Below are positions 2,817 to 30,403 of a stretch of DNA of 64,000 nt, piece after piece; position 1 is the stretch's first letter; each line of letters starts with the position of its first letter. A model generated the notes under the pieces. That model ran no database searches. It was not told where the DNA came from and saw nothing but the letters and a program-made list of their open reading frames with translations. Origin of the DNA: Micromonospora parathelypteridis (GTDB taxonomy: Bacteria > Actinomycetota > Actinomycetes > Mycobacteriales > Micromonosporaceae); contig NZ_JACHDP010000001.1 of the NCBI RefSeq assembly GCF_014201145.1, forward strand, positions 3,844,001-3,908,000, given 5' to 3'. Made by a program: the position numbers and the translations under genes.

Positions 2817-3654
2817 CCACGCCCGGTGCCGGCTGCCAGCCCGGCGCGCGGAAGAGATGCCCGACGCGATGCCGCCAGGTTGTGGCGGCGCGGAGGTCCC
2901 GGGCGATCGAGGCGTACTCGTGGAAGGCCACCCGGACCGGGTTGTAGCTGCCGATGTTCTTGGTCAGGCCGTACACGCAACGCTCACGCTCCGGCGCGAA
3001 CGAGCCGAAGAGCCGATCCCAGACGATCAGGATGCCGCCGAAGTTGCGGTCCAGGTAGCCGCCCTGCGAGGCGTGGTGCACCCGGTGGTGCGACGGGGTG
3101 TTGAACACCGCCTCGTACCAGCGCGGCATCTTCTCGATCCTCTCGGTGTGGATCCAGAACTGGTAGAGCAGGTTGACCGAGCCGCAGAACGCGACCACCG
3201 CCGGGTGTACGCCGACCAGGATCAGTGGGATGTAGAAGACCCAACTGGTCAGGCCGGTCCACGGTTGGCGCAGCGCGGTGGAGAGGTTGAACCGTTGCGA
3301 CGAGTGGTGCACCACGTGCGAGGCCCAGAGGATGCGGATCACGTGGTGGCCGCGGTGTGACCAGTAGTAGAAGAAGTCCTGGGCGAGCAGGATCAGCGGC
3401 CACGTCCACCAGACCTCGGCCACCCGCAGCGGGGTGAGCGTGTAGAGCAGCGCGTACGCGGCGGCGACCGGCACCTTCCAGAGCAGGTCGGTGAAGACGC
3501 TGCCCAGCCCCATCGCCAGGCTGGTCGCGGTGTCCGCGCCGCCATAGCCGACCTCGTCGTCGTCGCGGTGCAGCAGGTAGGAGACCCGCTCCAGCACGAT
3601 GAGCAGCAGGAAGGCTGGGATTGACCAGGCGATGACGTCCGGGAACTCCTTCAT
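2761..3654 (-). CDS. Sterol desaturase / fatty acid hydroxylase superfamily membrane protein
   Basis: This 297-residue integral membrane protein has the histidine clusters of the di-iron hydroxylase/desaturase superfamily (PF04116): HRGHH at 100-104, HVVHH at 113-117, a lone His 169, and HHRVHH at 189-194. Members use O2 to hydroxylate or desaturate lipids, sterols or carotenoids; the substrate here is unknown. Hydrophobic segments lie at about 9-28, 62-75, 84-98 and 136-165. Start ATG 3654 is preferred because GGAGG lies about 8 nt upstream; GTG 3678 in frame would add 8 residues. A perfect TACCG-GT-CGGTA palindrome (3710-3721) upstream could be a TetR-type operator. Confidence 0.85.
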   Translation of the reverse strand: MKEFPDVIAWSIPAFLLLIVLERVSYLLHRDDDEVGYGGADTATSLAMGLGSVFTDLLWKVPVAAAYALLYTLTPLRVAEVWWTWPLILLAQDFFYYWSHRGHHVIRILWASHVVHHSSQRFNLSTALRQPWTGLTSWVFYIPLILVGVHPAVVAFCGSVNLLYQFWIHTERIEKMPRWYEAVFNTPSHHRVHHASQGGYLDRNFGGILIVWDRLFGSFAPERERCVYGLTKNIGSYNPVRVAFHEYASIARDLRAATTWRHRVGHLFRAPGWQPAPGVVRAAGPARPDGRTSSAPG

Positions 3655-20703: not shown

Positions 20704-20799
20704 TCGCACAGCGACGGAGAAGCGACGTGAGGAATGTGGACGCTGGTTCCCTCCGCGGCGGGTCCGCACGGCGTCTGTCCGGGTGAGGAGGGCGATCCG

Positions 20800-21324
20800 T
20801 TGACGACTGAGGACCGCACCCGGGACGGCTTCGCCGACTTCGTCCGGGCCGAAACCGCCGGGCTGACCCGGTTCGCATACCTGCTGACCGGCGACCGGCA
20901 CCACGCCGAGGACCTGGTTCAGGTGGCGCTGGCTCGGGTCGCGGTGCGCTGGGAGCGGGTGGACGACCCACCCGCCTACCTGCGTCGGGTGCTCTGCACC
21001 CAGGCGGCCAGTTGGTGGCGGTGGCGGCGGGCCCGCCCACCGGAGCGGCTGGGCGGGGTGCTGCCGGAGCGGGCCGGCCCGGGTGACGATCCCGACCTGC
21101 GGCTGGTGCTGTCAGCGGCGTTGGCCCGGCTGACCGTGCGGCAGCGCGCGGTCCTCGTCCTGCGCTACTACGAGGACCGCACCGAGACCGAGACGGCGGC
21201 GCTGCTCGGCTGCCGGGTCGGCACCGTGAAGAGTCAGACCCGGCACGCTCTCGGCCGGCTGCGCGTCCTCGCGCCCGAGCTGGCCGAGCTGGTCGGCCGT
21301 GCCCCGCAGGAGGTGACCCGATGA
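20800..21324 (+). CDS. SigE-family ECF RNA polymerase sigma factor
   Basis: At 174 residues it is a two-domain ECF sigma factor of the actinobacterial SigE family: sigma-2 region LTRFAYLLTGDRHHAEDLVQ at about 21-40, then a sigma-4 helix-turn-helix with the typical LRYYEDRTETETAALLGCRVGTVKSQ at about 122-147. TTG 20800 is chosen because GAGGAGGG ends 7 nt before it; a longer in-frame start at ATG 20734 gives an N-terminus unlike the family. The next gene, a membrane protein, overlaps it by 4 bases and is the likely anti-sigma partner. The pair lies between the EamA gene and its broken copy. Confidence 0.85.
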   Translation: MTTEDRTRDGFADFVRAETAGLTRFAYLLTGDRHHAEDLVQVALARVAVRWERVDDPPAYLRRVLCTQAASWWRWRRARPPERLGGVLPERAGPGDDPDLRLVLSAALARLTVRQRAVLVLRYYEDRTETETAALLGCRVGTVKSQTRHALGRLRVLAPELAELVGRAPQEVTR

Positions 21325-22721
21325 CCGCCCGGCTCTCCGAAGCGCTGCGCGGCCTCGCCGACGACGTGCCGCCGGCACGCGTACCGGACGGGCTCTTCGA
21401 CGCGGCGCGGACCCGGCACCGCCGTCGCCGGGCCGCCGTCGCCGGCGTGCTCGCCGTCCTGGTCCTGCTCCTCGGCACCGGGTACGCGCTGCACCCGGTG
21501 GCCCTGCCGATGCCCGCCAGCCCGCGGCACGACACCCCGGGCCTGCCCACTCGGCTCGTCGACCCGCCGCTGCGGACCGCCTCGGTACGGGACTCGGCTC
21601 CCGGCGCGGCGGCGATGCTCTTCGGTGGCCCGGCCGTGCGCACCGACTGGTTCGAGACCCGGATGGGTGTGGTGGCCGCCGACGGGGACCGCTACCGGGT
21701 GCTGGACGTTGGTTCGGTCGTCGCGGGCTTCGAGGCGTTGCTCTCCCCGGACGGCCGGTACGTCTCGGCCGGCCCGTCCCTGCTCGACCTGAAGACCGGG
21801 AGGTTCACCCCGGGTCCCGCGGACGGCTACCCGCTCGCCTTCGCGCCGGACGGGAAGCGTCTCGTCTACGCCGACGACGAAACCTGGTTCACCCCGCCGA
21901 ACACCTACAGCACTCCGTACGTCGGGGTCTACGACCGCGAACGTGGGACGGACGTGCTGCGGGTGCGTGTCGGCACCGCCTGGATCCCGGCGGGACGCAC
22001 GGCCGCGCTGTCGCCGGACGGCGGTGACCTGGCCCTTCAGGTCCGCGACGAGGTCTGGTTGACCCGGGTGGCCGACGCGGGCGCCGATCGTGTCGCCGAG
22101 CCGTACCGCAGGCTGCCGTTGGCCGGCGGCCGGCTCGCCGGCGCGGGGTCCTGGCTGCCGGACGGGCGGTCGGTCGCCGTCCTGAACCGGTCCACCTGCA
22201 CCGACTGCCCGGTGCCGTCCTACCGGCGCACCTGGACGCTGGCGCTGCGGTCCACTGTCGACGGCACGCCGTTGGTCGGCGCGGCCTTCCCGTCGTTGCC
22301 CTCCCGCAGCTTCGTGCAACTGCTCGGTTGGCGCTCGGCGGACGAGGCGGTCGCGCTGGTCGGCGTGCCGAGCCCGGAGGCGGTCGACCAGCCGGAGAGC
22401 CACGACATCGCCTGGGGCCCCTATCACGAGCCTGCCACGGAGGCGGTGGAGCTCGTGGTGCTGCGGCGGGGCGCACCCACGCCGGAGGTGCTCTTCCGCA
22501 CCCCGCAGGGCATCACCGACCTGTCGGTCGCCGCCGACCTCGCGATCGCCGGCGCGGTACGCGAGTCCGGCCGTCCCGACTACGGGCCGCTGCCGTTCTG
22601 GGCGCTCGCGGTGGGGTTCGTCCTGGCGGTCCTGGTCGCCCTGCCCGTGCTGTCGCTGCTGCGACGCTGGCGTGCGAGCCGGCCCGGGCCAGCATCATCT
22701 GCTACGGGATCTGCACGCTGA
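21321..22721 (+). CDS. Membrane protein with beta-propeller-like domain, putative anti-sigma partner
   Basis: The 466-residue protein has a short cytoplasmic N-terminus (SEALRGLADDVPPARVP), a basic RHRRRR stop-transfer run, a membrane span at about 36-56, a long outer domain with WD40/TolB-like repeats (LSPDGRYV, FAPDGKRLVY, LSPDGGDLAL, LPDGRSVAVL), and a second span at about 426-447. Coupled by an ATGA overlap to a SigE-family sigma factor, it is probably its membrane regulator; no zinc-binding anti-sigma motif is seen. The last 15 or so residues are read from the remnant of a duplicated EamA gene in another frame, so the original C-terminus may have been replaced. Confidence 0.7.
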   Translation: MTARLSEALRGLADDVPPARVPDGLFDAARTRHRRRRAAVAGVLAVLVLLLGTGYALHPVALPMPASPRHDTPGLPTRLVDPPLRTASVRDSAPGAAAMLFGGPAVRTDWFETRMGVVAADGDRYRVLDVGSVVAGFEALLSPDGRYVSAGPSLLDLKTGRFTPGPADGYPLAFAPDGKRLVYADDETWFTPPNTYSTPYVGVYDRERGTDVLRVRVGTAWIPAGRTAALSPDGGDLALQVRDEVWLTRVADAGADRVAEPYRRLPLAGGRLAGAGSWLPDGRSVAVLNRSTCTDCPVPSYRRTWTLALRSTVDGTPLVGAAFPSLPSRSFVQLLGWRSADEAVALVGVPSPEAVDQPESHDIAWGPYHEPATEAVELVVLRRGAPTPEVLFRTPQGITDLSVAADLAIAGAVRESGRPDYGPLPFWALAVGFVLAVLVALPVLSLLRRWRASRPGPASSATGSAR

Positions 22722-22830: not shown

Positions 22831-25401
22831 CTACTCCGGGAGGCCCGCCACGTTACCGGGCCGGCCGCGCATGACGGCCCTGGCCGACAGCAGCGTCGTG
22901 GCCAGGGTCAGGCCGAGGGCGGCGGCGACCACGGTGAGAAGGATCCAACCGGAGCCGCCCGGTATCGCCGAGCCCAGCACGCTCACGCTCAACGGCACCA
23001 GGGTCAGCGCCGCGACCAGCCCGCCCAGGATGACGCCAGCCGACGAGACAAGTACCGCCTCCAGCGTCATCATCTGGATCACCTGTCGCCGGGTGGCCCC
23101 GATCAGCCGCTGGAGCATGAACTCCCGCCGTCGCTCGGTCGTCGCCAGCACCTGAGTGTTGATCAGGGCGATCGTCGCGTAGCAGACCACCACGCCAACC
23201 ACCAGGAACGCCATCCACGTCTGGGTGTCGTCCTGGTCTGCCTGCCCGGCGGTGAGGACTTCCCGGCGGGTCACCCGCAGGCCGGGGTGCTGCTCGGCCA
23301 GCGCGGACAGGGTGCTGGCCAGCCGGACGCGATCCGTTCCGACGTCGGCGCTCACCATGACCTGCGTGACCAGCCCGGCGTCCGTGTGCCCGACCAGGAG
23401 CGACGCCGGGACCAGCGTGGTCTCGTAACCACCCCGCCCACCGATCGTGGCCACCAGCTTCAGTGCGACCCGGCTGCCGTCGCCGAGCCGCATCGCAATC
23501 GTGTCGCCGATGCTCCGTCCGCCGGCGTACCTGGTCGGCAGGGCGACGGTCTGCCCGTGCAGCGCGTCGAGGCTGCCGGTGGCCGCGCGGAAGGCCGTCG
23601 TCCGGTTCAGTCCCTCGGGCGTGACGCCCTGCATCGACAGCTCCGCGGGCTGCGACGCGTCGGATCCTTCTTCCCCGCCGCCGGTCGATGCGAGCGGGGC
23701 CACCTCTGTCGGCTCCAGGTATCCGGTGCTGGAGATCGCAGCGGAGGCAGCCGCGACTCCGGGCTGGTTCCTGATCGCGTCCACCATGCCGAGCGGCAGA
23801 CCGCCTGCGTCGGAGGTGACCACCAGATCGGCTCGCAGGCCCTCGTCGAACGCCTTCTGCGCACCGTCGGACTGCGTGGTCTGCATGTAGATCAGACCGG
23901 TGGCCAGGCCGGTCGCGAGCATGACCGGCATTACCGCGGCGGCCAGCCGCGCCGTGCGTACCTCCGCGTTACGGGTGGCCAGATGCCCGGCGAGCCCGAA
24001 TACCAGGCGCACCGGCCGGCGCAGTCCAGCCGTGATGGCCCGGGACAGTACCGGGCCGAGCAGGCCGAAGCCGACAGTCCACACCAACGCCGCCGGAGTT
24101 GCCACACTTGCCGCGTCCGGGCCGTCCATCCGGGCGGTGGCCACGGCCAGGGCGGCGCCGCCGCCCAGGCACAGAAGACCGGCGATCAGTCGGACGCCGC
24201 TGAACCAGCGGCGTTGGAGGGAGGCTTCGGAGAGTGCCTCGGTCGGCCGGGTGCGTGCCGCCCCGTTCGCCGCTATGAACGCGGCGCCCACCGCGGTGAG
24301 CAGCGCGGTGCCCACACCGATGATCACCGGGACGGATCCGGCGCGGTACTCGATGGCGTCCGGCACGACGCCCGCGTCGGCAAAGGCACCGAGCAGCCAT
24401 CGGCCGAATCGAGCGCCGGGGTGGCAGGCCAGCGCGGTGGCGATCACGGCGAGGAACATCGTCTCGCCGAGGATCAGCCGGCGTAGCTGGCCCGGGGTGG
24501 TCCCGATCGCCCGGAGCAGGGCCATCTCCCGCTGCCGTTGCTGGATCGACAATCCGAGCGTGCCGGCCACCACGAATACGGTGACCATCAGCGACAGGCC
24601 GCCGAAGGCTGCGGCGAGGGGGATCAGATCGCCGCCTTCGGCGAGGACGTCGGGGTTCTCGGCCCGGCCGCGTTCGTCTCCGGTCATCACGGCGATGGGC
24701 TGCTCCTGCCCCGCGACTGCCTTCCGCACGCCCTCGGCGACCTGGCGGATATCAGCTTCGGGAGTGGTGAACACGCCGATCGAGTCGACAGTGCCGGGAC
24801 GTCCGGAGATCTGGTCGGCTTCCGGGTCGGAGAGGAAGATATCGCTCTGGTCGCGGGCGCTGGTGGCGAGGCCGGAGATCTCGTACCGCTTGGCGCTGCC
24901 GTGGACCAGGAGCTCGATCTGCCCGCCGGTACGCAGTCCGGCCTGCTTGGCCAGGTGCGTACCGAGGACGATCTGGCCGGGCCCGGAGGGTGGGGCGCCG
25001 TCGGCGATCCGGTACGGCGTGAGCTGGGCGGAGGACCAGCCGTGGCCGGTGACCTTCGCGCCGGCTGCCCGGCCGGTGCGTGGGGCCAGGGCGGCCGGGA
25101 ACGAGATGTCCTTCGCCGTGTCGGTGACACCGGGGACCGATGCGATCCGGTCGGCCAACGTCGCGTCCAGGTGGATGCGTTCGGGGTACACCAGGTCGCG
25201 CTGAGTATCGACATAGCGCTGGTCGCCGGTGACCACGATCGGTGCGGCGGCGAGGCGCAGGGGTGGAGCCGCGTTGTGTATGCCGGTTTCGAGCAGCCCG
25301 CCGCAGCCAATCACGATCATTGCACCGAAGGACAGGGCGATGAACGACGCGATGAAACCGCCTTTGTGGAAACGCAGGGTGCGTAGCGCGATCCCGATCA
25401 T
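22831..25401 (-). CDS. ABC transporter permease, FtsX/MacB-like
   Basis: The 856-residue protein has the actinobacterial long-permease plan: an N-terminal span (residues about 16-36), an extracytoplasmic MacB-type domain, three spans (about 265-385) ending in a first FtsX domain (LSIQQRQREMALLRAIGTTPGQ at about 284-305), further spans, a second outer domain, and a last FtsX domain (ERRREFMLQRLIGATRRQ at about 750-767) before the final spans. Such permeases move lipids or peptides or transmit force, not simple import. The start overlaps the ATPase stop by 4 bases (ATGA). Together with the divergent MMPL gene and the two-component system it forms one module. Confidence 0.9.
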   Translation of the reverse strand: MIGIALRTLRFHKGGFIASFIALSFGAMIVIGCGGLLETGIHNAAPPLRLAAAPIVVTGDQRYVDTQRDLVYPERIHLDATLADRIASVPGVTDTAKDISFPAALAPRTGRAAGAKVTGHGWSSAQLTPYRIADGAPPSGPGQIVLGTHLAKQAGLRTGGQIELLVHGSAKRYEISGLATSARDQSDIFLSDPEADQISGRPGTVDSIGVFTTPEADIRQVAEGVRKAVAGQEQPIAVMTGDERGRAENPDVLAEGGDLIPLAAAFGGLSLMVTVFVVAGTLGLSIQQRQREMALLRAIGTTPGQLRRLILGETMFLAVIATALACHPGARFGRWLLGAFADAGVVPDAIEYRAGSVPVIIGVGTALLTAVGAAFIAANGAARTRPTEALSEASLQRRWFSGVRLIAGLLCLGGGAALAVATARMDGPDAASVATPAALVWTVGFGLLGPVLSRAITAGLRRPVRLVFGLAGHLATRNAEVRTARLAAAVMPVMLATGLATGLIYMQTTQSDGAQKAFDEGLRADLVVTSDAGGLPLGMVDAIRNQPGVAAASAAISSTGYLEPTEVAPLASTGGGEEGSDASQPAELSMQGVTPEGLNRTTAFRAATGSLDALHGQTVALPTRYAGGRSIGDTIAMRLGDGSRVALKLVATIGGRGGYETTLVPASLLVGHTDAGLVTQVMVSADVGTDRVRLASTLSALAEQHPGLRVTRREVLTAGQADQDDTQTWMAFLVVGVVVCYATIALINTQVLATTERRREFMLQRLIGATRRQVIQMMTLEAVLVSSAGVILGGLVAALTLVPLSVSVLGSAIPGGSGWILLTVVAAALGLTLATTLLSARAVMRGRPGNVAGLPE

Positions 25402-26198
25402 CGGAGCACCTCGTGTCCTGCCTGCTGGGCAACGGTCCGGCTGCCCCAGGCGCCGAGGTGGGTCAGGCGCGCGGCGACCTGGTCGGCGGTGGGCCGATCC
25501 AGCGAGCCGACGATCCGGCCGTCGGCGAGGAACACGACGCGGTCGGCGTGGGCGGCCGCCACCGGGTCATGGGTGACCATCACGATCGTCTGGTCCGACT
25601 GCTCGACCGCCTCACGCAGCAGCGTCAGCACCTCGCTCGCGGTGTAGGTGTCCAGCGCGCCGGTGGGCTCGTCGCCGAAGATCACCGCGGGTCGGGTGAT
25701 CAGCGCTCGTGCGATGGCGACGCGCTGCTGCTGCCCGCCGGAGAGTTCACCCGGTCGACTGTTGCGCCGATCGCCCAAGCCGACCCGTTCGAGTACGTCG
25801 TCGACCGCGGCGAGCTTTGGCCGCTGCCCGGCCAGCCGCAGCGGCAGGGTGACGTTGTCCACCACGCTCAGCGCTGGGAGCAGGTTGAAAGCCTGGAAGA
25901 TGAAGCCGATCCGCTCGCGGCGGAGCTTGGTCAGCTCGCGTTCCCCGAGCGGTGCGAGATCCACGCCGTCGAGCAGGATGGATCCCGACGTCGGCCGGTC
26001 GAGCCCGGCCGCGCAGTGCAGGAAAGTGCTCTTGCCCGAACCAGAGGGGCCCATCACCGCGGTGAAGGTGCCTCGGTTCAGGCCAATGCTCACATCGTCG
26101 AGGGCGGTCACGGCGTTCATCGTGCCGCCGTAGACCTTGCGTACGGATTCAAGCCGTACGACTTCCTGGGCGTGCGGGTCCGGCGTCCTGTTGTTCAT
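25398..26198 (-). CDS. ABC transporter ATP-binding protein (LolD/MacB type)
   Basis: At 266 residues it is a single nucleotide-binding domain: Walker [10 protein letters not shown] at about 50-58, Q-loop [10 protein letters not shown] at about 97-106, signature [16 protein letters not shown] at about 154-169, Walker B VIFGDEP at about 175-181 and switch His in MVTHD. It powers the FtsX-like permease encoded downstream with a 4-base overlap. ATG 26198 has no ribosome site; CAGCAT lies 7 nt upstream, so the message may be leaderless. A longer frame reaches 26327, but it would run through the divergent regulatory region and is rejected. Confidence 0.92.
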
Positions 26199-26333
26199 GG
26201 GGTCAATGCTGGTCGTGGGCCTGCCGCCGCCGACAGCCTCGACTGATTGAACCTCGGGTCCACCAGTCGACGTACCCGAGGTTCCATCTCTCGATGCTGT
26301 TGGCGTAGGCAGGCCCGCGACCAGCATTCAGGC
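26199..26333. promoter_or_regulatory. Mirror-image divergent promoter with AACCTCGGGT operator
   Basis: The whole gap between the ABC operon and the MMPL gene is an imperfect inverted duplication. Reading outward from the centre, the left arm (26259 down to 26200) and the right arm (26274 to 26333) agree at 49 of 60 positions without gaps. The innermost 10 bp are a perfect repeat, AACCTCGGGT (26250-26259) with ACCCGAGGTT (26274-26283), 14 bp apart. Each arm then has a -35-like TTGGCG or TCGGCG and a CAGCAT -10-like hexamer 6-7 nt before the ATG. Dimer sites upstream of matched promoters suit activation by the NarL-type regulator encoded at 29738. A second short pair, TCGACTG/CAGTCGA (26239-26245, 26264-26270), overlaps the core. 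Confidence 0.75.
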
Positions 26334-28547
26334 ATGAGAGATCTCCCCGTACGGATGGCTCGATGGAGCGCTGGACACCCTTGGCGCGCGATTGTCGGCT
26401 GGCTCCTGTTCGTGCTGCTGTGCCTGGGCGCCGGGGTGGCCGTCGGCGGCAACCCGGCCACCACAGAGGACTTCCGCATCGGCGAGGCCGGCCAGGCCGA
26501 GGCGATGGCTGCCGAGGGCGGTCTGCAGCAGCGGCCGGTGGAGCGCGTCCTGATCACCGCGAAGCCCGGTACCGGTCGATTGGATGTCGTCGCGGCCGAC
26601 GCCGCCGCCCGCGACGCCGCCGCGCGGATGAGCAGGCTCCCCGAGGTCCGATCAGTGGCCGAGCCGGTCCGTGCGGCCGACGAATCGGCGGTGCGGGTTG
26701 ACGTCACGCTGAACGGCCCGGAACTCGACGGCAAGAAGCACGTCGACCCGCTGCTCGCGCAGACCGCCGAGGTGCAGCGGGCCAACCCGGGGCTGCGGGT
26801 GGAGGAGGTCGGCTCCCCATCAATCAGCAAGGGCGTGGACAAGCTCCGAGGAGATGATCTCTCTCGTACCGAAATGATCGCTCTGCCGGTCACGATGATC
26901 ACGCTGCTGTTGGTCTTCAGCTCCGTAGTGATGGCGCTGGTACCGCTGCTCCTCGCGCTCTCCTCCATCGCGGCGGCCATCGGTCTGGCGATGCTGGCCT
27001 CGCACGTCTTCCCGGACGCCGGCGTCGGCACCAACGTCATCCTGATGATCGGTCTGGCCGTCGGCGTCGACTACACCCTCTTCTACCTCAAGCGAGAGCG
27101 GGAGGAACGGGCCAGGAGCGGCGGCCGGCTCAGCCCGCGGGTGGTGGTGGAACTCGCCGCGGCCACCTCGGGACGGGCCGTCGTACTCTCCGGTTTCGCC
27201 GTCGCCATCTCCAGCGCGACGCTGTACCTGGCCGACGACGTCATCTTCTCCTCGATCGCCACCGGAGCGATCGTGGTCACCCTGGTCGCCGTGGTCAGCT
27301 CTCTGACCGTGCTGCCCGCCCTGCTTGCCAAACTCGGCGAGCGCGCCGAGCGCCGTGCGGTGCGCAGAGCGGCCAGGGCGGCCCGGCGCGGCGCGGCCGT
27401 ACGGGCCAAGAAGTCACCGAGGCCCGGCGCCGGTCGGCTCACCGCCGCCGTGCTGCGCCCCGTCGTCAACCACCCCGCCGCCACGCTGGCCGTCACGGTC
27501 CTCGCCATGCTGGCCCTGGCCACGCCATTACTGGGCTTGAAACTGACGGACATGGGCCGCGAGACGCACTCCCGTTCGATCGGCGCCATGCAGACGTACG
27601 ACCGCCTCAACGCGGCGTTCCCGGACCTGATGGCGATGCACCAGGTGGTCGTACGCGCCGACGCCAGCCGGGCCGACGAGGTGGCCGCGGCGCTGGGTGA
27701 ACTCGCCACGGAGGTGCGGGGCGACCCGCGGTTCAGCGGTACGGCCGAGCTGCGCACCTCGCCGGACCGACGGATCACCATGCTCCAACTGGCGGTGCCG
27801 CACTACGTGAGCAGCGACGAGGCCCAATCCTCACTCCGGCAGCTCCGCAAGGAGTACGTCCCCAACACCGTTGGCGGGGTGCCCGGCGCGCTGACCGCGG
27901 TCACCGGTGACGTCGCCCGCTACGCCGACTATCCCGAGCATCAGAAGCAGAAGCTGCCGCTGATCATCGCGGCCCTGCTGCTCGTCACGTTCGCGATGAC
28001 GGTGTGGGCGTTCCGTTCCCTGACACTCGGCGTGGTCGGCGTCCTGCTGAACCTGCTCTCGGCCGGTGCCTCGCTCGGCGTACTCGTGCTGGTCTTTCAG
28101 AACCGGTGGGCAGAGGGTCTGTTCGACTTCACCTCCACCGGGTCGATCGGCTCCCGGGTGCCGCTGTTCCTGTTCGTCATCCTCTTCGGCCTGTCGATGG
28201 ACTACCAGGTGTTCGTGATCAGCCGGATCAGAGAGGCCGCCATGAGCGGTATAACCACCCGCCAGGCCGTGATCGATGGCATCAGCAGTTCGGCCGGCGT
28301 GGTCACCAGCGCCGCCATCGTGATGGTGACGGTGTTCGCCAGCTTCGCCGCGCTGCACCTGATCGAGATGAAGCAGATCGGATTCAGTCTGACGGTGGCC
28401 GTACTGCTGGACGCCTTTGTCATCCGGATGCTGATCCTGCCGGCGCTGATGTTGCTGCTCGGCGAGGCCAACTGGTGGCCGGGGCGGGGGATACGCCGGG
28501 GACCGGGTTCGGGCCCGGTCGACCGACCGATGGCGAAAGTACGCTGA
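26334..28547 (+). CDS. MMPL family (RND) transporter
   Basis: The 737-residue protein has the twelve-helix MMPL plan: a first span at about 19-39, an extracytoplasmic porter loop, five spans (about 178-350), a cytoplasmic basic linker (ERRAVRRAARAARRG at about 366-380), a second span and loop, and a last bundle with LFGLSMDYQVFVISRIRE at about 617-634. The paired Asp-Tyr of the proton relay are in AVGVDYTLFYLKRE and GLSMDYQVF. MMPL proteins export lipids, lipopeptides or drugs with proton energy. It shares a symmetrical promoter with the ABC operon, and the two-component genes follow 4 bp and 1.2 kb downstream. Confidence 0.92.
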   Translation: MRDLPVRMARWSAGHPWRAIVGWLLFVLLCLGAGVAVGGNPATTEDFRIGEAGQAEAMAAEGGLQQRPVERVLITAKPGTGRLDVVAADAAARDAAARMSRLPEVRSVAEPVRAADESAVRVDVTLNGPELDGKKHVDPLLAQTAEVQRANPGLRVEEVGSPSISKGVDKLRGDDLSRTEMIALPVTMITLLLVFSSVVMALVPLLLALSSIAAAIGLAMLASHVFPDAGVGTNVILMIGLAVGVDYTLFYLKREREERARSGGRLSPRVVVELAAATSGRAVVLSGFAVAISSATLYLADDVIFSSIATGAIVVTLVAVVSSLTVLPALLAKLGERAERRAVRRAARAARRGAAVRAKKSPRPGAGRLTAAVLRPVVNHPAATLAVTVLAMLALATPLLGLKLTDMGRETHSRSIGAMQTYDRLNAAFPDLMAMHQVVVRADASRADEVAAALGELATEVRGDPRFSGTAELRTSPDRRITMLQLAVPHYVSSDEAQSSLRQLRKEYVPNTVGGVPGALTAVTGDVARYADYPEHQKQKLPLIIAALLLVTFAMTVWAFRSLTLGVVGVLLNLLSAGASLGVLVLVFQNRWAEGLFDFTSTGSIGSRVPLFLFVILFGLSMDYQVFVISRIREAAMSGITTRQAVIDGISSSAGVVTSAAIVMVTVFASFAALHLIEMKQIGFSLTVAVLLDAFVIRMLILPALMLLLGEANWWPGRGIRRGPGSGPVDRPMAKVR
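28540..28545 (+). promoter_or_regulatory. Leaderless -10 element inside the MMPL 3' end
   Basis: TACGCT lies 6 nt before ATG 28552 of the histidine kinase gene and within the last codons of the MMPL gene. The kinase and regulator may therefore be transcribed on their own as well as by read-through. Confidence 0.45.
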
Positions 28548-28551
28548 CCTC

Positions 28552-29736
28552 ATGGTTGCGCGGCAGGAGACTCACGGCTGGTCCGCCCCAGGCAGGTTCC
28601 GCCGCTGGAACGCTGTCTCCTGGGTGCTCCTGGGCCTGTCGCCGGCGGCCGTTGCCCTGGCGCACGAGCCCGAGGTGCGAGCCGATTGGGCGTTGTGGCT
28701 GCTGGCGCTGCTCGGGCTCTGCTACGGGGTTGTGCTGGCCCTGCCACGCAACCCCGTACTGGTCCATCGGACCTTTCTGGTCGTGCTGGTCCTCGGCCTC
28801 GGGGGGATGTCCTACGCGCTGGGTGGCGCCGCCTCGTTGTTCGTGTTGTCGCTGCCGCACTTCTGGATCTACACCCGCGGCCCGCGGTCCGCGATCGTGC
28901 TGAGCGGGCTCGCGGCGGTGGCCACGGTGTTCGCCGGGACACTGCGGCAGGGATGGAGCCCGCAGTTCCTCAACGGCAACGTCGTCTTCACCATTCTCGG
29001 TTACCTGGCGGGCGTGGCGATCGGACTGTGGGTGCACCACATCTCCGGGCAGAGCGACGAACGGGCCAAGCTGCTGGGCGCCGAGCTGGAGCGCGCCCAG
29101 CGGCGGCTGGTCGAGGCCCACCAGCGGCAGGGCGCCGCGGACGAACGCGAACGGCTCGCACGGGAGATCCACGACACCCTCGCCCAGGGATTCGCGTCCA
29201 TCATCGTGCTGGCGGAGGCGGCCCGTTCCGGCATCGGCACCGATCCGGCGAAGAGCGCCCAGCAGCTTCTCTCGATCGAGCAGACCGCACGCGAGAACTT
29301 CGCCGAGGCGCGGGTGCTGGTCGGCTCCGCCCCGCAGAGCGGCGTCGCCCCCGGCTCGGTCGCCCGGACCCTGCGCCGGACCCTGGACCGGTTCACCCAG
29401 GACACCGGGCTCACCGTCAGCGCCGAGCTGCCGGATATCGACTGCGACCAGACGGCCCGAATCGCGCTGTTGCGCTGCACCCAGGAGTCGCTGGCCAATG
29501 TGCGCAAGCACGCCGCCGCCTCCACTGTGGGTGTGGTCCTGGCGCAGTACCCGGACGGTGTGGAGCTGGAAATCACCGACGACGGCCGCGGCTTCGTGGT
29601 CGAGGACTCCCGAGGCTTCGGCCTCGACGGCATGCGCAAGCGCCTGGCCGAACTCGGCGGCGAACTCACCGTCACCAGCTCCGTCGGCGACGGCACCCGT
29701 GTCCTCGCCACCATCCCCAGCAATGCTCAGGAGTGA
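28552..29736 (+). CDS. Sensor histidine kinase, NarX/HisKA_3 type
   Basis: The 394-residue protein has five or six membrane spans in the first 160 residues with little outside the membrane, so it probably senses a membrane state or a lipophilic compound. A coiled linker leads to HisKA_3 with the phospho-accepting His in RLAREIHDTLAQGFASI (about 200-216), then the HATPase with N-box CTQESLANVRKHA (about 310-322) and G-box ITDDGRGF. The short ending GTRVLATIPS closes the fold. It is followed by its cognate response regulator 1 bp after the stop. Confidence 0.92.
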   Translation: MVARQETHGWSAPGRFRRWNAVSWVLLGLSPAAVALAHEPEVRADWALWLLALLGLCYGVVLALPRNPVLVHRTFLVVLVLGLGGMSYALGGAASLFVLSLPHFWIYTRGPRSAIVLSGLAAVATVFAGTLRQGWSPQFLNGNVVFTILGYLAGVAIGLWVHHISGQSDERAKLLGAELERAQRRLVEAHQRQGAADERERLAREIHDTLAQGFASIIVLAEAARSGIGTDPAKSAQQLLSIEQTARENFAEARVLVGSAPQSGVAPGSVARTLRRTLDRFTQDTGLTVSAELPDIDCDQTARIALLRCTQESLANVRKHAAASTVGVVLAQYPDGVELEITDDGRGFVVEDSRGFGLDGMRKRLAELGGELTVTSSVGDGTRVLATIPSNAQE

Positions 29737-29737
29737 C

Positions 29738-30403
29738 ATGACAGAGGACAGCATCCGCGTCATCGTGGTGGACGACCACGCGGTGATGCGCGCCGGAGTC
29801 GTCGCCCTACTGGCGCCGGAGCCCACCGTCGCCATCGTCGGCCAGGCGAGTAACGGCAGGGAAGCAGTCGAACTCGTCGAATCCCTCGCTCCCGACGTGG
29901 CGCTCATCGATCTGCGGATGCCCGTCCTCGACGGCGTGGCCGCCACCATGGAGATCGTCGCGAGCCGGGCCGCGACCCGGGTGCTGATCCTCACCACCTA
30001 CGACACCGACGTGGAGATCGAGCGCGCGGTCGAGGCCGGCGCGGTCGGCTACCTGCTCAAGGACACCACCCGCGAGCAGCTCGTCGACGCCATCCGGGCC
30101 GCGGCCCGCGGCGAGACCGTCCTGGCCCCACGGGTGGCCCAACGGCTGGTGGCACGGATGCGGCGGCCGACCCCGGTGGTACTGACCGCGCGGGAGCTGG
30201 ACGTACTGAACGCAGTGGCCGACGGTCTCTCCAACGCCGACATCGGCCGGCGGTTGGTCATCGCGGAGGCGACGGTGAAGACACACCTGCTGCGCGTCTT
30301 CGCCAAGCTCGACGTCAGCGACCGTACCCACGCGGTGGTCCTGGCCCTGGAACGGGGTCTGCTGGTACGTCCGGTTCGCGACGCGCTGTTCGGTGGCGAC
30401 TAG
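29738..30403 (+). CDS. NarL/LuxR-family response regulator
   Basis: At 221 residues it has a receiver domain (acidic pocket VVDDH at 10-14, phospho-acceptor Asp in DVALIDLRMP at about 52-61, Thr in LILTTYD, Lys in GYLLKD) and a C-terminal LuxR-type helix-turn-helix (LTARELDVLNAVADGLSNADIGRRL, then TVKTHLLRVFAKLDVSDR). ATG 29738 has CAGGAG 5 nt upstream. With the kinase it forms a two-component system that most likely controls the divergent ABC/MMPL promoter. It converges on the next gene, sharing 4 bases at the stops. Confidence 0.93.
   Translation: MTEDSIRVIVVDDHAVMRAGVVALLAPEPTVAIVGQASNGREAVELVESLAPDVALIDLRMPVLDGVAATMEIVASRAATRVLILTTYDTDVEIERAVEAGAVGYLLKDTTREQLVDAIRAAARGETVLAPRVAQRLVARMRRPTPVVLTARELDVLNAVADGLSNADIGRRLVIAEATVKTHLLRVFAKLDVSDRTHAVVLALERGLLVRPVRDALFGGD

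Follow-up and report, generated by a model that had tools for sequence, protein, structure and literature searches.

The window, by which we mean the whole 64,000-nucleotide stretch of Micromonospora parathelypteridis DNA analysed here, contains two sets of export genes that are transcribed outward from one control region (Table 1). On the reverse strand, the genes of the ATPase and the FtsX-type permease overlap by 4 bp (25398–25401), from which we infer that they form one operon. On the forward strand, an exporter, a HisKA_3 kinase and a LuxR-type response regulator follow one another in one row, all in the same orientation. The regulator scores below the NCBIfam cut-offs of NarL (158.5 bits against 250), MadR (156.9 bits against 300) and MctR (141 bits against 300). 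The start codons of the two outward-facing genes, the ABC ATG at 26198 (reverse strand) and the MMPL ATG at 26334 (forward strand), are separated by a gap of 135 bp (26199–26333). Both frames are open through the gap, the ABC frame from an ATG at 26327 and the MMPL frame from a TTG at 26247, and the starts adopted follow those of relatives: in 76 of the 80 MMPL loci compared the match opens at the first residue of the protein, and the four nearest ABC relatives are 265–272 residues long. The closest ABC relatives (P0002–P0007, 84–92% identical) are encoded on metagenome contigs. Elsewhere in the window (20734–22721), a gene for a sigma-70-family (ECF-like) factor overlaps a downstream gene with a weak match to the PD40 β-propeller.

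Table 1. Coordinates in the window of the genes and promoter features on either side of the mirror centre.
Feature	Position	Strand	Basis
FtsX-type ABC permease, 856 aa	22831–25401	-	PF02687, two stretches
ABC transporter ATPase, LolD/MacB-like, 266 aa	25398–26198	-	PF00005; best NCBIfam models under cut-offs
Left mirror arm (ABC-facing)	26205–26259	-	Repeat search and 49/60 arm comparison
-10-like CAGCAT, ABC promoter, 7 nt ahead of ATG	26206–26211	-	Alignment columns 65–70
Second conserved box, ABC-facing arm, AGGTTCAATCAGTCGAGGCT	26235–26254	-	Columns 22–41 of element alignment
Putative shared palindromic operator, mirror centre	26258–26275		Aligns with GTCCACC-N4-GGTGGAC of MMPL homologues
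Right mirror arm (MMPL-facing)	26274–26328	+	Repeat search and 49/60 arm comparison
Second conserved box, MMPL-facing arm, AGGTTCCATCTCTCGATGCT	26279–26298	+	Element alignment
-10-like CAGCAT, MMPL promoter, 6 nt ahead of ATG	26322–26327	+	Element alignment and model match
MMPL family transporter, 737 aa, leads MMPL-HK-RR operon	26334–28547	+	PF03176
Histidine kinase with HisKA_3 domain	28552–29736	+	Domain search
NarL/LuxR-type response regulator, candidate operator binder	29738–30403	+	Response_reg and GerE; HTH segment EATVKTHLLR

The original prediction described this gap as a mirror image with 82% identity over 60 bp without gaps, and the symmetry is confirmed: when the two halves are read outward, 49 of 60 positions are the same in an ungapped comparison, and a repeat search returns two arms of 55 nt each that are 85% complementary and are separated by a spacer of 14 nt. 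With a score of +1 for a match and -1 for a mismatch, the best inverted repeat of the gap reaches 39, compared with a maximum of 13 among 1000 dinucleotide-preserving shuffles (none of which reaches 39) and with a next best score of 23 among 639 tiles of the window (135 bp, step 100). The perfect 10-bp repeat that had been singled out, AACCTCGGGT/ACCCGAGGTT, is indeed present in the two arms (26250–26259 and 26274–26283). However, the mirror centre at 26266.5 is also the centre of an 18-bp dyad (26258–26275), the one dyad that the gap holds between both promoters, and it is this dyad, rather than the 10-mer repeat, that is the core to be considered.

With a length of about 125 bp, inverted repeats that are long but imperfect and little sequence at its centre, the structure has the build of a MITE or of a pair of insertion-sequence ends, and the mirror could in principle be the remnant of such a mobile element. 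No dispersed copies were found, however: in the 7.01-Mb genome (one contig), the gap has no match at E ≤ 0.001 besides its own mirror (40 of 51 candidates scored). As described below, the arms match a gene-linked promoter unit of other genera and families, and a mobile-element origin is therefore considered to be extremely improbable.

A promoter unit shared with MMPL homologues

For comparison, 255 loci that encode a relative of the MMPL protein were found, and the best 80 of them were kept, from Streptomyces, Actinomadura, Frankia, Nocardia and others. In 78 of the 80, one unit lies upstream of the MMPL gene, consisting of a dyad, a second box with the consensus AGGTTCAACCGGTCGAGGCT and a -10-like CAGCAT shortly ahead of the ATG. 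The dyad is 18 bp long and reads GTCCACC-N4-GGTGGAC, the outer heptamers being exact mirror images in 73 of the 78 loci, and the distance from its start to the ATG is 77 nt in 69 loci and 76 nt in nine (for this count, the start codons of L021, L033 and L069 were shifted to the ATG at the family distance). In an alignment of 44 of the 78 loci, 12 of the dyad's 14 half-site positions are invariant, as are A66 and T70 of the -10-like hexamer, which correspond to the two positions that are strongest in bacterial -10 hexamers, and T41 is the sole invariant column of the -35 region. Of the promoter elements named in the original prediction, the -10-like elements are thus well supported by comparison, whereas the -35-like elements are weak. 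A weak -35 region would fit an activator-dependent promoter, and because the ATG lies 6–7 nt from the -10-like hexamer and no ribosome site is visible, a leaderless messenger would be the simplest reading of the unit. In five Streptomyces loci (L037, L040, L041, L044 and L053), another conserved stretch resembling GGAGA(C/G)TAGCTGTA lies about 100–170 bp upstream of the MMPL ATG; it is perhaps a second promoter, and in L037 it is near a divergent ATPase-like frame.

The dyad of the window takes the same place ahead of its row of genes, with one degenerate half. Toward the MMPL gene it reads GTCCACC-AGTC-GACGTAC, so that the half beside the ABC promoter is intact and the MMPL-side half carries three changes from GGTGGAC in its seven positions. 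From the edges of the dyad, the ATG is 76 nt away on the MMPL side and 77 nt away on the ABC side, which is the family spacing in both directions. The proposal of a shared operator at the mirror centre is supported by this comparison with the homologues, 78 of 80 of which have the dyad upstream.

A search of the genome for further members with the palindrome alone proved to be uninformative, with 265 places at up to two mismatches compared with 263 for the reversed control pattern, and it was therefore replaced by a model of the whole unit (R1; 80 columns, built from sequence only). In the window, this model gives two strong matches of 56.9 and 40.4 bits, both in the gap, and the next match has 11.3 bits; in the whole of the same genome, the two best matches (E of 1.7e-14 and 2.5e-9) are again both in the gap, and the next has an E of 0.05. 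A paralogous MMPL gene in this genome (G000:C1:4606055–4608235; L007), has 51% identity, and at E ≤ 0.01 the unit model finds nothing at its locus.

The two matches are unequal. The ABC-facing arm is nearer to the consensus (57 bits versus 40 bits for the MMPL-facing arm), it matches the consensus of the MMPL units at 74% of columns compared with 67% for the MMPL-facing arm, and among the 78 MMPL units 53 are closer to the ABC-facing arm, 11 are closer to the MMPL-facing arm and 14 are ties. Since the MMPL-facing arm is less near to the consensus and its operator half is changed at three of seven positions, output is predicted to be unequal, with the ABC side stronger than the MMPL side. The suggestion that the two export systems are driven in equal measure does not agree with these differences.

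Origin of the mirrored arms

The unit model was also run on 73 genomes behind the 80 MMPL loci (24 + 49), with L016, L074, L078, L083 and L085 left out along with L052 and L061, which share their assemblies with L042 and L043. In eight of the 73 genomes (L175, L178, L179, L211, L212, L214, L215 and L216), a second unit was found on a different contig from the MMPL unit, ahead of an orthologue of the ABC-FtsX operon that is 68–81% identical to the window in the ABC protein and 57–71% identical in the FtsX protein; as most of the assemblies are drafts, the separate contigs give no distance between the two units. In seven of the eight, the ATG is 77 nt from the start of the dyad, and L215 has ACG at this position. 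In the other 65 of the 73 genomes, no unit ahead of the ABC-FtsX operon was seen, and the ABC operon is consequently not a general member of the regulon. There are probably ABC orthologues that lack the unit, P0062 and P0070, which seem to belong to the genomes of L014 and L013, where no such unit was seen. In five Streptomyces loci (L037, L040, L041, L053 and L057), an ABC ATPase with 57–61% identity lies 1.1–1.4 kb upstream of the MMPL gene and is transcribed away from it, with no unit at its start. Other matches in this set were not counted as ABC-FtsX: L213 is a second MMPL-HK copy with a short MMPL match, L217 has the unit immediately ahead of a regulator gene, L220, L222 and L225 are near kinase or regulator genes, and L227 is an ABC2 operon. 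The matches at L218, L219, L221, L223, L224, L226 and L228 have no query gene nearby and were regarded as due to chance, like L180.

Focusing on the columns of the unit that vary among homologues, the arms of the window are more alike than other units are to either of them. Of the 26 variable columns, 25 can be compared, and the arms have the same letter at 76% of them; the best agreement among the other 86 units (78 MMPL and eight ABC) is 73% with the ABC-facing arm and 60% with the MMPL-facing arm, and the eight pairs of MMPL and ABC units from the same genome agree at 38–58%. In the strictest column class (17 columns), one of the 78 units is as close to the ABC-facing arm as the MMPL-facing arm is. 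Over all columns outside the dyad, the agreement between the arms is 0.81 (47/58, with optimal gap placement), and among the other units the highest values are 0.80 with the ABC-facing arm and 0.79 with the MMPL-facing arm. Because the arms are alike at columns that vary elsewhere, although by a small margin, they probably shared sequence more recently than common membership in one regulon requires, and copying or conversion between the arms is a likely cause.

Alternatively, two unrelated promoters could have become alike through selection by the same regulator and sigma factor. The arms do agree best at conserved columns (16/18), and the small margin above other units over all columns is compatible with such convergence. 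However, they also agree at 12 of the 17 least conserved columns, compared with mean agreements of 0.38 and 0.32 with homologues, which makes convergence very unlikely.

It is instead rather probable that both operons are members of one regulon with a shared operator. Two histories could have produced this arrangement, and they differ in history only, the shared operator being functionally the same in both. In the first, two pre-existing units were fused through the palindrome, with later conversion between the arms; in the second, the ABC operon arrived without a regulated promoter and the MMPL promoter was copied in place over the palindrome, for example by template switching. The in-place duplication would account for the agreement at variable columns above that of all 86 other units and of the same-genome pairs, and the palindrome, a natural template-switch point, would offer a suitable site. 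In contrast, the ABC-FtsX orthologues of eight of the 73 genomes have a unit of their own, seven of the eight at 77 nt, it would take chance for a freshly made copy to break off no more than 7 nt from the ABC start codon, and it is the ABC-facing arm, not the MMPL-facing arm, that is nearer to the MMPL units of other genomes (53 versus 11, with 14 ties). In-place duplication is accordingly regarded as unlikely, though still to be reckoned with. We lean towards the fusion of two units, since the ABC operon of some lineages comes with a unit of its own, equally spaced from the ATG, and so had no need of the MMPL promoter, and since a fresh copy would require the chance stop just mentioned. No close relative with adjacent ABC and MMPL operons and no intermediate was found in the sets examined, and fusion is for this reason only one of two histories that fit. 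Of the inverted duplication proposed earlier, copying or conversion between the arms is thus suggested by the comparison, and a plain duplication is not established in view of the separate ABC units.

Within the sets examined, the mirrored arrangement itself appears only in the window. Its mirror score is 0.85 over 52 columns, and among the 78 other MMPL units, scored over up to 59 columns, there is no case in which the symmetry extends past the dyad region (highest arm identity 0.46, average 0.31). Searches at the levels of genus, family and class returned no other genome with two strong, opposed and overlapping matches, a result that a much weaker partner arm could escape. The class loci have mirror scores of at most 0.44 (27 loci; L243 and L250 were left out as the operator was not found in place), the family loci L115, L116, L127 and L130 have no valid mirror score, and for seven family matches, two of them from the genus, the sole criterion was that no opposed match overlapped them. 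Weak matches on the opposite strand at L036, L043, L063, L073 and L089 were considered as second promoters and were rejected, being taken as the other strand of the operator with a weak extension. The original prediction had looked to related genomes for the symmetry: the symmetry of the promoters is absent from them and that of the operator is present, and since relatives keep the operator symmetry, the shared-operator model survives. In L114, a perfect palindrome of 50 bp (L114:1485–1534, at about L118:8203–8252) spans the dyad and, to either side of it, part of the second box; one promoter and gene (an ABC-2 ATPase) is seen here, the other side being the end of an α/β-hydrolase gene, and the mirror score of 0.62 results from the operator and part of the second box being palindromic.

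The NarL-type regulator clade and its putative targets

Among the 80 MMPL loci, a homologue of the regulator is present in 75 and a homologue of the kinase in 76. The only two loci in which neither a kinase nor a regulator was found (L079 and L084) are also the only two without the unit; they belong to Planotetraspora and Microtetraspora and are perhaps not two independent events. At L042, L043 and L047, the unit is present and a regulator was not found at the locus. In the genome of L047, an 80%-identical regulator lies on a different contig from the MMPL-HK genes, with the unit immediately ahead of it (L217, about position 3395, reverse strand).

With the genome of the window included, matches to the unit model occur in five of 160 genomes of the genus, 37 of 354 of the family and 28 of 394 of a class sample; these sets overlap, and the strict filters applied to many genomes lose weak matches. 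Grouped by the first gene beside the match, the 31 genus and family loci comprise five with MMPL, 19 with an ABC-2-type ATPase, three with a regulator nearby and four with none of these, and the 27 class loci, some from the same genomes as in the family set, comprise seven with MMPL, 17 with ABC-2, two with kinase and regulator and one with none. In L117 and L118, from the same genus as the window, the unit lies ahead of ABC-2 exporter operons, each of which has a kinase of its own and a 59%-identical regulator; of the four other matches in this genus, L115 and L116 have no related gene nearby and look like chance. In L148 (7440–9057), a kinase (65% identical) and a regulator (80% identical) lie beside a convergent LPG_synthase_TM gene that bears the unit, and in L149 (7362–9002) an 80%-identical regulator lies beside an LPG_synthase_TM gene with the unit ahead of that gene; in neither locus was an MMPL match found within the stretch read. 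As the unit is found at MMPL, ABC-2 and LPG_synthase_TM targets, it follows the regulator clade and not a single transporter.

The helix–turn–helix segment of the window's regulator is the same in all 11 related regulators compared. Changes in both halves of the dyad that preserve its symmetry occur in L140, L222, L248 and L255 (L140 and L222 being weak matches), and such symmetric double changes suggest that one protein reads both halves; one-sided changes are also found, in the five of the 78 MMPL loci without exact mirror heptamers and in L249. The NarL-type regulator, which the original prediction had named as the natural binder, is favoured by this comparison, in which the unit tracks the regulator clade across transporter classes. 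A different protein, such as an unlinked repressor, could instead bind the dyad, with the NarL-type regulator acting elsewhere, given that the link between dyad and regulator is one of co-occurrence and that no regulator was found at L042, L043 and L047. However, L079 and L084 lack unit and kinase/regulator alike, and the unit keeps company with the regulator clade at three kinds of target; we regard another binder as improbable.

In the mechanism that we propose, two copies of one control unit would share a single operator, on which they stand head to head. This operator, the 18-bp dyad, would be bound by a dimer of the NarL-type regulator (29738–30403) and be followed outward by the second box and then by a weak activator-dependent promoter. 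The kinase (28552–29736) would sense a signal, which is probably envelope stress or a toxic compound, to judge from the exporters and from the LPG-synthase-like target that relatives have. Once phosphorylated, the regulator would bind the dyad, reach either second box and turn both operons on, and activation of the MMPL–kinase–regulator operon would amount to positive feedback. With CAGCAT ending 6–7 nt ahead of the ATG, each messenger would probably start at or next to its start codon. The two units would most likely have been joined by a rearrangement with the palindromic operator as the seam, joining in opposite orientation being possible because the dyad is nearly the same on both strands, and the arms would have been made more alike by copying or conversion during or after joining. 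The ABC-facing arm would have kept the consensus, and drift of the MMPL-facing arm and its operator half would give the unequal output that is predicted.

Divergent operons on one operator are familiar from the tetA/tetR and araBAD/araC types, which resemble the window in having one regulator-binding region between outward-pointing promoters. In contrast to these, the window has two copies of one unit as its promoters, the mirror is centred on the operator dyad, and neither of the target operons consists of the regulator gene by itself. Among described systems, the nearest working model found is LnrJK–LnrLMN of Bacillus subtilis, in which, according to the accessible part of the report, the two-component system is likewise co-operonic with the exporter that it activates, and lnrLMN is strongly induced by amphotericin B in a LnrJK-dependent manner (PMC7472640). 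Compared by description, the exporter of the window is instead an MMPL protein plus a divergent ABC-FtsX operon, and two targets are proposed for its regulator whereas one is reported for LnrK in that part of the source, which mentions neither the 7-4-7 dyad nor the leaderless spacing of the window (PMC7472640). In the portion of another report that is accessible, AgrR of Cupriavidus is a response regulator that binds a 6-4-6 inverted-repeat box at regulated and at divergent promoters; AgrR belongs to the OmpR family, whereas the regulator of the window is of NarL/LuxR type with a putative 7-4-7 box (PMC7380067).

In the open-access literature, no paper on an actinobacterial MMPL–kinase–regulator system or on the unit was found, and a description in subscription journals may exist. 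The wider find is a conserved promoter unit that links one regulator clade to several exporters, for which no describing paper was found. Tentatively, and with rather less than even confidence, these observations may be taken to indicate an undescribed actinobacterial regulon, in which one NarL-type clade would control exchangeable exporters (MMPL, ABC-2 and ABC-FtsX) and an LPG-synthase-like protein through one leaderless unit, and in which the palindromic operator would act as a recombination seam that fuses members head to head, caught once here. If this is true, a two-component system of many actinobacteria would gain a concrete 7-4-7 operator, a promoter layout and a list of targets, and membership of the regulon would be predictable from sequence, antibiotic producers included. 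The fused site would also be a natural experiment in which a bidirectional control region was made from two one-way promoters, and it would bear on whether a single operator dimer is able to serve two leaderless promoters at unequal strength.

Near position 1501 of both L248 and L255, an operator variant, GTCCTCC-N4-GGAGGAC, lies ahead of ABC-2 exporters; it is possible that this variant marks a branch of the regulator with changed specificity.
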